NCBI GenBank assembly: GCA_009692665.1
Contig: SHYT01000009.1
Location: forward strand, 16,906 to 80,905
Reading direction: 5' to 3'
DNA: 64,000 nt
Source of the DNA: Dehalococcoidia bacterium
Lineage (GTDB): Bacteria; Chloroflexota; Dehalococcoidia; Lucifugimonadales; SHYT01
Numbering within the stretch: the stretch's first letter is position 1; every line of letters starts with the position of its first letter. The position numbers and the translations under genes are program-made. The notes under the pieces are model-generated. The model saw only the letters and a list, made by a program, of their open reading frames with translations, had not been told where the DNA came from and made no database searches. Shown in pieces: positions 941 through 64,000 of this stretch.

Positions 941-1009
941 TATCGCTGATAGGCCGTGACGGAGACAAGTAGCGCGACTACGGCTGCCCAGCGAGGCCGA
1001 CCCTATCTC

Positions 1010-1073
1010 CCGTTCGTCCTGAGCGAGCATTAGGCGATGCCAAGCGCTCTTGGCTTGTCGAAGGACAAACTGG
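1010..1073 (+). repeat. REP-like palindrome inside the T-box stem I apical region
   Basis: GTTCGTCCT at 1012-1020 is mirrored by AGGACAAAC at 1062-1070, enclosing a 41-base interior that can form its own hairpins. It resembles the REP core GTTCGTGGT...ACCATGAAC within the TIR elements at 28059 and 53240. It sits between the two conserved apical motifs of T-box stem I, so it would lengthen the apical loop without breaking the conserved parts. Confidence 0.6.
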
Positions 1074-1263
1074 GTGGTGGAGAAGTGGAAGCGGCTGCAG
1101 CGCGTTCGTGTGAACATCCCTCCTGAGCTTCGCCCCGAGTCTGCCTCTGGCGGATAGGCTGCGACGGTGTCCGCCGTTACCGGAAAGAGGCGTGTTCACG
1201 CCTCAATAAAGTTGCCAGGTCCGAGGCCAGGAACCTGGAATGAGGGTGGTACCGCGGGCTTTC

Positions 1264-1298
1264 AAAGGCCCGTCCCTGATAGGGGCGGGCCTTTTGTT
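1264..1298 (+). terminator. T-box-controlled intrinsic terminator
   Basis: Stem AAAGGCCCG-T-CCC with loop TGATA-like pairs to GGG-G-CGGGCCTTT, followed by TTTTGTTTG. It lies directly after the T-box core, where the mutually exclusive antiterminator would form. Confidence 0.85.
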
Positions 1299-1322: not shown

Positions 1323-1975
1323 ATGGATTTACGGCTCAGCAAAAGCTATGTAATAGACAATGTCGGGAAGAAGGTCCTGGCGTTTCGGATATTTGACGAA
1401 GCATTTGATTATGCCCAGAAAACCTCTTCTAATTTGGACTTTATCACGGCTGAAGATGTGAGGCTGATCAATACGTCTATGCGTGCAAGAACCTCAGAAA
1501 GGGATTGGAGCGGCTTCTACAAAACCAGCCTGAAGGGCTTGCCAGTCGTAGACCTGCTAAGACTAACTGATGCCGAATGGGCCAAAACGAAACCAATCGT
1601 AGAACAAGTCGTGAATCAATTTCTTCCAGCGCCAAATGTTGGGGCTCCCAGGCTGACAAAAATCTTACACAAGAGGTGCCCCGCATTGATACCAGTTTGT
1701 GGCCGCGTGGTAGTGGCCGTTCTCAGAAAAGCTAAGCTCACAGTTTCTAATGAAAATGGAGCGGGTTGTATCACGAATTGTATGGGCACTTCATTGAGAT
1801 TGGCCGTGGTAACGCGGAAGGGCTGACGAAGGTTGATCAGTATCTGCGAGCGAAGCTTCCACAGGCAAGCCCTATTACTCTACTGCGAATACTTGAGGTG
1901 GCTACCTGGCTTGAGGGAACGTCTCGATATCAAGAGCGTTTCAAGCACTTAAATCGGATTGGATGGGTCTTATAG
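1323..1975 (+). pseudogene. DUF6308-like gene with a single-base frameshift
   Basis: From ATG 1323 the reading frame gives a protein rich in expected family features (for example LTKILHKRCPALIPVCG) up to about base 1750. The matching C-terminal part (GHFIEIGRGNAEGLTKV, then ILEVATWLEG) continues to 1975 in another frame. Adding one A to the AAAA run at 1753-1756 joins the two into one protein of about 217 residues ending RIGWVL. This may be a real frameshift or a consensus error. The gene is clearly lower in GC than its neighbours and is the first gene behind the T-box terminator, with ileS second. The family name is from memory of conserved phrases; its function is unknown. Confidence 0.6.
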
Positions 1976-2051: not shown

Positions 2052-5200
<3,149 letters not shown>

Positions 5201-5204
<4 letters not shown>

Positions 5205-28016: not shown

Positions 28017-28017
28017 C

Positions 28018-28055
28018 CTTCTCAGCGCTCTTCCCCAAAGGGGTCCGCCTTGCGC
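28018..28055. repeat. imperfect 38-bp direct repeat, left copy
   Basis: Begins CTTCTCAGCGCTCTTCC immediately after the tenA copy 1 stop. A similar 37-bp copy lies at 28277-28313, on the other side of the TIR element. Confidence 0.6.
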
Positions 28056-28058
28056 GTT

Positions 28059-28270
28059 AGTGGGTCAATTTGTGACATGTGATTGTCTGCTCGACGCGGC
28101 GGACAAGGTGCGCGGCTCCTTGCCCTCCGACGCTGTCACTTGTTTCCCCGTTCGTGGTGAGCCTGTCGAACCATGAACGGACACCACAGGAGAGGGCAAC
28201 GTTTTCCAGTTAGGTCGACCCAACTGGACTTGTGTCAAACCCACAGTTCCGGATACTCAAACTGACCCAC
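28059..28270. mobile_element. TIR element (MITE-like), copy 1
   Basis: About 212 bp with 13-base inverted ends: left GTGGGTCAATTTG, right CAAACTGACCCAC (one mismatch). It has no ORF. Its centre holds the REP palindrome GTTCGTGGT...ACCATGAAC. It is roughly 75-80% identical along its length to the element at 53240-53465. It lies between the two tenA genes, inside direct repeats. Confidence 0.75.
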
Positions 28271-28276
28271 CACCCC

Positions 28277-28313
28277 TTCTCAGCGCTTTCCCCAAAGGGA
28301 GACTCCTTGCGCC
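28277..28313. repeat. imperfect 38-bp direct repeat, right copy
   Basis: Begins CTTCTCAGCGCTTTCC, partner of 28018-28055, starting 7 bp after the TIR element ends. Confidence 0.6.
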
Positions 28314-53064: not shown

Positions 53065-53768
53065 TTTAGCTCGCCGGCAGCTCCGCTTGGGTCGCCTTCG
53101 TGGCCCTCGTCAGCCTGCCTAGCTCAAGCCCCGCCGTGACCTTCTAGGCGTGATAACCTTCCTGCCCTTCCCGTTTTCCACGCCCTTGCCTGCTGGGCCT
53201 GCGCCCGCGCCATCCGTCACCATACACTCGTCCGTTGCTAGTGGGTCAATTTGACATGATTATCTGCTCGGCACGGCAAACAGGAAGCCCGGCTCCTTGC
53301 CCCCCTTCGCAGTCACTTGTTTTCCCCGTTCGTGGTGAGCCTGTCGAACCATGAACGGACACCACAGGAGAGGGCAGCGTTTCCCAGTTTGGTCGGCCCA
53401 ACTGGACTCGTGTCAAATCCTAGTTCCAGATAGCTACTAGGTTCCGATTCTTAAATTGACCCACTGCTCGTCCGTTAGTGCCTCTGGACAATGAACCCTT
53501 GCCTTACATGCACCACCAATGCACTCTATACGTATGCACTACTCATACTCAAAGACATATGCTCATCCGCCAAGCATACTAAGTGTGGCTGGCAAGGAGG
53601 CAGAAGCAACACCCAAAGAGCATTCTGCTACACCCCCCCCTGCACGTGGCCCATTGCTGCCCAGTTGTTGCACAATAGGCAACGTTTCGCAGTGGACGAA
53701 GCGGAACCAGATGGAATCCGTCGAGGCCGGCGCAATGAAGAAGAGTGACGACAGCGCTACTATGCGTG
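53065..53768. other. 704-bp gene-free stretch with repeats
   Basis: No supported gene. It holds the TIR element copy 2 (53240-53465) with its flanking CTCGTCCGTT repeats and, at 53647-53700, a segment similar to the uppP-thiI intergenic sequence near 35688 (shared CCAGTTGTTGCA). Short ORFs here have no protein-like character. Confidence 0.5.
53240..53465. mobile_element. TIR element (MITE-like), copy 2
   Basis: About 226 bp. Left end AGTGGGTCAATTT and right end AAATTGACCCACT are perfect 13-base inverted repeats. It carries the REP core GTTCGTGGT...ACCATGAAC and lacks any ORF. Direct repeats CTCGTCCGTT at 53227-53236 and 53467-53476 flank it, a likely target-site duplication. Same family as 28059-28270. 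Confidence 0.8.
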
Positions 53769-62339: not shown

Positions 62340-62465
62340 TTCCGCGACCCTGAGCGGAGCCGAAGGATGAACGGACACCACAGGAGCTGGCAGCGTTTCC
62401 CAGTTTGGTCGGCCCAATTGGACGTATGGCAAATCCATAGTTCCAGACACTCAAATTGAACCACT
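62340..62465. mobile_element. decayed TIR element, right part, copy 3
   Basis: From ATGAACGGACACCACAGGAG at 62367 through CAGTTTGGTCGGCCCAATTGG to the end CAAATTGAACCACT (62452-62465) it follows copies 1 and 2; a REP variant GACCCTGAGCGGAGCCG precedes it. The left end cannot be found. Part of the gap between the KimA gene and 23S. Confidence 0.65.
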
Positions 62466-62511
62466 ACCCAAAGCGCTATCCCTTGTGCCACGCATGGCTT
62501 CCTGGTACAGT

Positions 62512-62755: not shown

Positions 62756-64000
<1,245 letters not shown>

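Follow-up and report, generated by a model that had tools for sequence, protein, structure and literature searches.

The window analysed here is a 64,000-nt stretch of the draft genome of a Dehalococcoidia bacterium (31 contigs, 1.58 Mb; hereafter G000), and near its left end an isoleucine T-box leader precedes an aminoacyl-tRNA synthetase gene. The terminal loop of stem I in this leader holds an 80-nt palindrome related to repeats scattered through the same genome. The features of the leader and its presumed target, all on the plus strand, are as follows:

947..1280, plus strand: isoleucine T-box leader of the transcriptional type (RF00230; cmscan 68.4 bits, E=9e-15, model positions 1–219)
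990..994, plus strand: first T-loop pentamer of stem I, AGCGA (from the sequence; consensus AGAGA in PMC7583486)
995..999, plus strand: 5′ strand of the distal stem I helix, GGCCG, pairing with 1092–1096 (CGGCT) in the cmscan alignment and in relatives
1001..1080, plus strand: palindrome of 80 nt, probably inserted (absent from relatives and from a paralogue; copies of an 18-mer elsewhere; predicted hairpin at 1003–1080)
1086..1090, plus strand: second T-loop pentamer, UGGAA (from the sequence; consensus UGxRA in PMC7583486)
1116..1118, plus strand: specifier codon ATC (Ile), within GAACATCCCTCC (cmscan and comparison with relatives)
1239..1257, plus strand: T-box core AATGAGGGTGGTACCGCGG (cmscan)
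1264..1294, plus strand: intrinsic terminator, 14 pairs followed by a T-rich tail
2052..5204, plus strand: ileS, the presumed regulated gene, 1050 aa (Pfam tRNA-synt_1 and Anticodon_1)

The leader is assigned to RF00230 by a covariance match over the whole model, although its score lies below the gathering score of 93; a default Rfam scan therefore reported no T-box in the window, and the leader was recovered by a focused scan. A search of the whole genome with the same model returned only its 3′ part, at 41.5 bits. In the cmscan alignment, the terminal loop of stem I contains 92 letters, compared with 13 in the model, and the portion of stem I that is printed carries no mark for a non-standard pair. 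The T-box core and a competing terminator are both present, the latter being one of two terminator-like sites found between 860 and 2060, where 1.3 were expected, and the specifier agrees with the downstream ileS. The isoleucine T-box with an ATC specifier, core and terminator that the earlier note had read from the sequence is thus confirmed, as is its placement of the palindrome in the apical region of stem I, since the covariance alignment puts the hairpin inside the terminal loop. Of the two motifs that the note took to flank the palindrome, the first corresponds to the pentamer AGCGA, whereas the second, GGTGGAG (1076–1082), was misplaced: five of its seven bases lie inside the insert, and it does not fit the UGxRA motif as given in a T-box review (PMC7583486). 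The pair AGCGA/UGGAA does fit, at the level of sequence, the AGAGA/UGxRA pair described there. AGCGA has the same letters in the ileS leaders of both genomes of the same family in the loop-length comparison, and UGGAA matches the second pentamer of one of them, the sister genome G002, letter for letter. The leader shares with known isoleucine T-boxes of RF00230 the AGxGA/UGxRA stem I, the ATC specifier, stem II, the pseudoknot region, the T-box core, the terminator and the location upstream of ileS; it differs in having 101 nt rather than about 21 nt between the T-loops, the extra 80 nt being repeat-derived.

The class I synthetase encoded at 2052–5204 is taken to be IleRS on the basis of the T-box specifier and general knowledge, its Pfam domains not being specific to IleRS. 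The closest relatives, the same-family genomes G001 and G002, have IleRS proteins that are approximately 72–73% and 70–71% identical to it, respectively. An open reading frame resembling DUF6308 (1323–1823; E=1.2e-5 and 25.7 bits, where the cut-off is 27.3) lies between the terminator and ileS, and readthrough must therefore extend further than in these relatives: the distance from the T-box core to ileS is 807 nt in the window, 292 nt in G001 and 96 nt in G002. A promoter scan of the region upstream of the leader found none; TTGACA (913–918) and TACGCT (935–940) can be seen there by eye. At the far end of the window, a 23S rRNA gene starts at 62756 and continues past the edge at 64000.

The stem I tip was compared among T-boxes by the length of the stretch from the AGxGA pentamer to the UGxRA pentamer, with motif definitions from the T-box review (PMC7583486). 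The set of T-boxes upstream of ileS comprised 42 members, namely that of the window and 41 hand-picked relatives drawn from the best 80 of 242 loci, and the length could be resolved in 36 of them and not in six. Four loci with a core 2.2–3.8 kb upstream of ileS (L080, L094, L112 and L113) and two with a poor core match (L043 and L044) were left out, and for a few of the T-boxes retained, 1–2.7 kb ahead of ileS, the target may be a different gene. The inter-pentamer length was 20 nt in one of the 36, 21 nt in 22, 22 nt in nine, 42 nt in two, 45 nt in one and 101 nt in the window. The absence of the insert from relatives, which the earlier note had proposed as a check, was found in all 35 of the other resolved leaders, as well as in a paralogous isoleucine T-box of the same genome (G000:C2:120153-120410), which aligns on both sides of the insert and has 29 nt where the window has 109, so that exactly 80 nt are missing. 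Thirty-two of the 35 have the 20–22 nt stretch, and the other three (L045, L046 and L049) reach 42–45 nt with short blocks unrelated to the insert of the window. The two same-family ileS leaders, in G001 and G002, measure 20 and 21 nt without an insert, and excision of 1001–1080 from the window leader leaves exactly 21 nt, the commonest length in relatives.

A search with RF00230 found 18 T-boxes in total in four genomes (G000, G001, G002 and G030). Fourteen other T-boxes were taken from four genomes and 12 were resolved, two not; eight of the 12 had 21–22 nt between the T-loops, and four (L160, L163, L161 and L151) had 44–55 nt, with extra blocks at the same point of stem I that differ in sequence and length from the insert of the window. 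Given that several T-boxes of these genomes hold unrelated additional blocks there, the stem I loop is a permissive position. A wider comparison took in 140 high-scoring T-boxes from the order, which are the best-scoring among the matches listed, less four rows already included elsewhere and the last six rows of the listing, and are for that reason biased against inserts. In this set, 133 of the 138 resolved members had 20–25 nt and the maximum was 34 nt; this set overlaps partly with the ileS set, and its values of 12–13 and 34 nt probably reflect mis-assigned pentamers. The closest relatives are just 71–73% identical in IleRS, and the insertion therefore cannot be dated.

The origin of the insert is indicated by sequences elsewhere in the genome. 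The string GTTCGTCCTGAGC at 1012 has no further exact match in the window; related palindromes, TTCGTGGTGAGC, occur at 28151 and 53329, both inside dispersed repeats of approximately 200 nt, as the earlier note had observed, and TTCGTNNTGAGC occurs three times in the window, where 0.12 occurrences are expected. At the level of the whole genome, the 18-mer CCCGTTCGTCCTGAGCGA (1009–1026) is found exactly at seven further places, eight in all, with a chance expectation of approximately 5e-5 (an estimate assuming equal base use). Exact identity to the copies in the same genome is limited to the left arm, the middle and right arm matching only with changes, and the full 80 nt has no exact repeat elsewhere in the genome. 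When the palindrome copies were aligned to the insert, all six G000 copies compared and 11 of 12 G002 loci (L177 narrowly) scored better than every shuffle, a similarity that is partly a matter of choice because the arms had served to locate the copies, which in G000 match the left arm alone. The best of the 12 G002 loci, L170, gave a gapped alignment to insert positions 9–77 with a score of 47, whereas none of 300 shuffles scored above 29, and the outer arm AACTGGGTGG is common to both sequences. The score of the G002 locus L178 was reached by one shuffle, and the window relatives at 28151 and 53329 were not outstanding, their scores being reached by four shuffles and one shuffle, respectively. 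A count over 40 genomes of the order gave 141 occurrences of TTCRTCCTGAGC, spread over 36 of them, and 14 of the reversed control. The genome G005 holds 32 copies of this string, by far the most among the 40, and some of them are clustered at C1:2827157-2827385.

Each of the seven further G000 sites of the 18-mer lies within a composite repeat of approximately 200 nt, whereas the copy in the T-box stands without it. Two members of the composite family were delimited in the window:

28058..28255, plus strand: dispersed composite repeat with the kindred palindrome GTTCGTGGTGAGCCTGTCGAACCATGAAC, 86% identical over 199 nt to 53239–53432
53239..53432, plus strand: second copy of the composite repeat, 86% identical over 199 nt to 28058–28255

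The ends of the composite repeat (28058–28255, 53239–53432 and 62361–62469) look by eye like terminal inverted repeats, GTGGGTCAATTTG and CAAATTGACCCAC, and a 39-nt direct repeat (28017–28055 and 28275–28312, 87%) lies on either side of the copy at 28058. The composite element is possibly a MITE.

Multiple copies in the same genome, at the level of the 18-mer, together with predicted hairpin arms identify the insert as a dispersed palindrome. Repetitive extragenic palindromes (REPs) are short, dispersed, imperfect palindromes present in many copies, and in the strict sense they are associated with a RAYT (Y1_Tnp) transposase and have a conserved tetranucleotide, GTAG/GGAG, at the hairpin foot. 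The palindrome of the window is likewise short, imperfect, dispersed and multi-copy, but the other seven copies of its 18-mer lie within a longer repeat, and a Y1_Tnp/RAYT gene (PF01797) was found in none of eight draft genomes, its own included. This transposase was accordingly rejected as the mover of the palindrome, and a REP/RAYT system is not supported; the earlier description of the insert as REP-like holds in the sense of a dispersed palindrome, a REP in the strict sense being doubtful.

Folded alone, the 80 nt are predicted to form one long hairpin (1003–1080) of −32.8 kcal/mol (z −2.87), as good a fold being obtained for three of 200 shuffles, and in the context of stem I the main stem of the insert has pair probabilities of 0.89–0.99. 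The insert together with its flanking stem folds no better than shuffles (z −0.99), and RNAfold, whose model does not include T-loops, gave no support to the native distal helix either with or without the insert (probability 0.06–0.09). One pair in the arms of the insert is C-A (1015 and 1067), at a position where the palindrome of the other copies would pair. The terminator scan found no terminator at the insert hairpin, behind which a T-run is absent, and the hairpin should therefore not terminate transcription. Among the extra stem I blocks of other T-boxes, a fold more stable than that of shuffled sequences was predicted for those of L160, L163, L046 and L049 (z −2.6 to −3.0), and those of L045 (z −1.2) and L151 (z 0.3) were unremarkable. 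L160 (115–173) is the third isoleucine T-box of G000, with 55 nt between the T-loops and a strong predicted hairpin (z −3.0); it contains two GGTGAGA motifs that look like a duplicated second T-loop.

Blocks that are repeated elsewhere in the same genome were found in at least six of the 18 T-boxes of the four genomes: one in the stem I loop, four in the stem II loop, as placed by the Rfam alignments, and one in a linker. In the ileS T-box of G002 (L158), the stem II loop has 80 letters and holds a block that recurs at nine other places in the genome with 79–90% identity, and in the second isoleucine T-box of that genome (L162) the same loop has 142 letters, its block matching six other places at E≤4.1e-4. 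The paralogous isoleucine T-boxes L157 and L164 of G030 have 103 and 104 letters in the stem II loop, with blocks that are 93% alike, and the block of L157, used as a query, matched 16 further places in G030 besides L164. In L161 of G030 (1570–1632, minus strand), the repeat CCCTCTCCCTTGATGGGAGAGGG lies in the linker before the antiterminator and is found at 40 other places (at least 41 copies); copies of it also adjoin L157 and L164. The repeat families of G000 and G002 are kin, and those of G030 differ. The number of independent insertion events is put at about four to five rather than six, because L157 and L164 may share a single event and because L158 and L162 are also paralogues, their blocks being different. 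This recurrence is tentatively read as survival in permissive loops rather than as targeting. Two further stem I hairpins were considered as dispersed repeats and rejected: the distal hairpin of L163 (G001) gave three other matches, the best at E=0.09, and that of L161 gave no match at E≤0.1. The core of L163 (1501–1784), an isoleucine T-box with an additional hairpin in stem I, is degenerate, GGTGGTGCGGG, and this T-box scores 39.6 bits with an E-value above 1e-5; it is possibly a decaying leader, and extra hairpins are thus not always accompanied by an intact switch. Just four of the 18 T-boxes pass the gathering score, and default thresholds will miss such leaders, though not only because of inserts.

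Taken together, these results argue that a palindrome of 80 nt related to dispersed repeats was inserted into the loop at the tip of stem I, where its predicted side hairpin would leave the tRNA-elbow platform able to form, a reading to which a probability of about 0.83 is assigned and which supports the proposal of the earlier note that a mobile palindrome landed there. The palindrome would have been gained in this lineage, rather than lost from the others, at a point in the connector that leads from the distal helix to the second T-loop. Its RNA would fold autonomously in the cell as a hairpin projecting sideways from the connector. The switch would still read tRNA-Ile through the specifier, the elbow platform and the T-box bulge, such that uncharged tRNA-Ile would bind and prevent termination ahead of ileS. 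Retention of function is predicted, with indirect support from the standard pairs in the printed part of stem I and from the intact specifier, core and terminator. The stem I tip that bears the block likely touches the tRNA.

It is very unlikely that the extension is instead a native, ancient apical domain that relatives have lost or shortened, with a secondary likeness to the palindrome. The additional blocks that L045, L046 and L049 (42–45 nt) and L160, L163, L161 and L151 (44–55 nt) have at this point would be in keeping with such a domain, but they differ among themselves in sequence and length; the stretch measures 20–22 nt in 32 of the 36 resolved ileS-upstream T-boxes and 21–22 nt in eight of the 12 others, and a native domain would give no reason for an 18-mer common to seven other loci. 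Even less credence is given to coincidental resemblance or misassembly: although the sequence comes from a 31-contig draft, the 18-mer occurs at eight places in all, conserved T-box sequence lies on both flanks in the right order, and similar blocks recur in other genomes, which together make such an explanation exceedingly improbable.

Two other explanations accept an insertion and concern its consequences. The insert may have inactivated the tRNA-sensing stem, leaving a decaying pseudo-riboswitch with ileS expressed from elsewhere; the core-to-gene spacing of 807 nt, against 292 nt in G001, and the intervening DUF6308-like reading frame, which could bring another promoter, point in this direction, as do the sub-gathering Rfam score and the example of L163, where an extra stem I hairpin accompanies a degenerate core. 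The absence of any non-standard pair from the printed stem I and the intact specifier, core and terminator argue against decay, and the low score is no sign of it because the insert-free paralogue L156 (79.0 bits) and the ileS leader of G001 (74.6 bits) also fall below the gathering score, so that this explanation is considered unlikely. Recruitment of the hairpin, by which selection would have kept it for an additional contact with tRNA-Ile or for an altered folding speed, is judged quite unlikely. Inserts do recur in T-box loops, and the T-box review suggests that insertions specific to a lineage may provide new contacts with tRNA (PMC7583486); against this, sister genomes have inserts that differ in where they lie, how long they are and what sequence they have, which is the pattern that tolerated passengers would be expected to give, and the single copy at hand has a C-A pair in its arms where other copies would pair. 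The preferred reading, insertion of a repeat-related palindrome with the switch predicted to be retained, can be extended to the order as a whole, in which scattered palindromes would be a continuing source of new T-box domains, landing repeatedly in stem I and stem II loops, persisting there because of the structural freedom of these loops and in some cases being recruited to tune folding or the binding of tRNA. This extension is offered tentatively, as a possibility that probably goes too far; if true, the supply of palindromes would explain the origin of many unexplained T-box insertions.

Among the open questions that the review names are lineage-specific insertions, present in all domains of the T-box, whose structure and function are not known (PMC7583486). 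Like known T-box insertions, the extra hairpins described here lie at the periphery of stem I and stem II; they differ in that the source of several is identified as a dispersed genomic repeat. No report of a dispersed repeat inside a T-box was found in titles and abstract openings, most subscription papers being beyond reach, and two 14-letter core strings of the palindrome were absent from the full texts searched. Repeats inside structured RNAs or genes are represented by the STRR repeats in cyanobacterial RNase P RNA and by the Rickettsia palindromic elements. In these as in the present case, a functional RNA or gene tolerates a dispersed repeat at its periphery, whereas here the host is a tRNA-sensing riboswitch and the site is a loop beside a tRNA-contacting motif. 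The origin of several T-box insertions can be read directly in these genomes, from repeats of the same genome, and paralogues and sister genes that lack the blocks serve as natural controls. The ileS leader of G000 (filled stem I), the paralogue on G000:C2 (empty) and the G002 leader (filled stem II) together offer natural insertion experiments from which the tolerance of the tRNA-elbow platform and of stem II for additional RNA could be gauged. A separate observation concerns the ileS T-box of a Baikal genome (L097), where a stem II block missed by the arm search, GTGCGTCTTTCGACAGGTTCAGGATGCACAG (3551–3617), appears by eye to belong to the same palindrome family.
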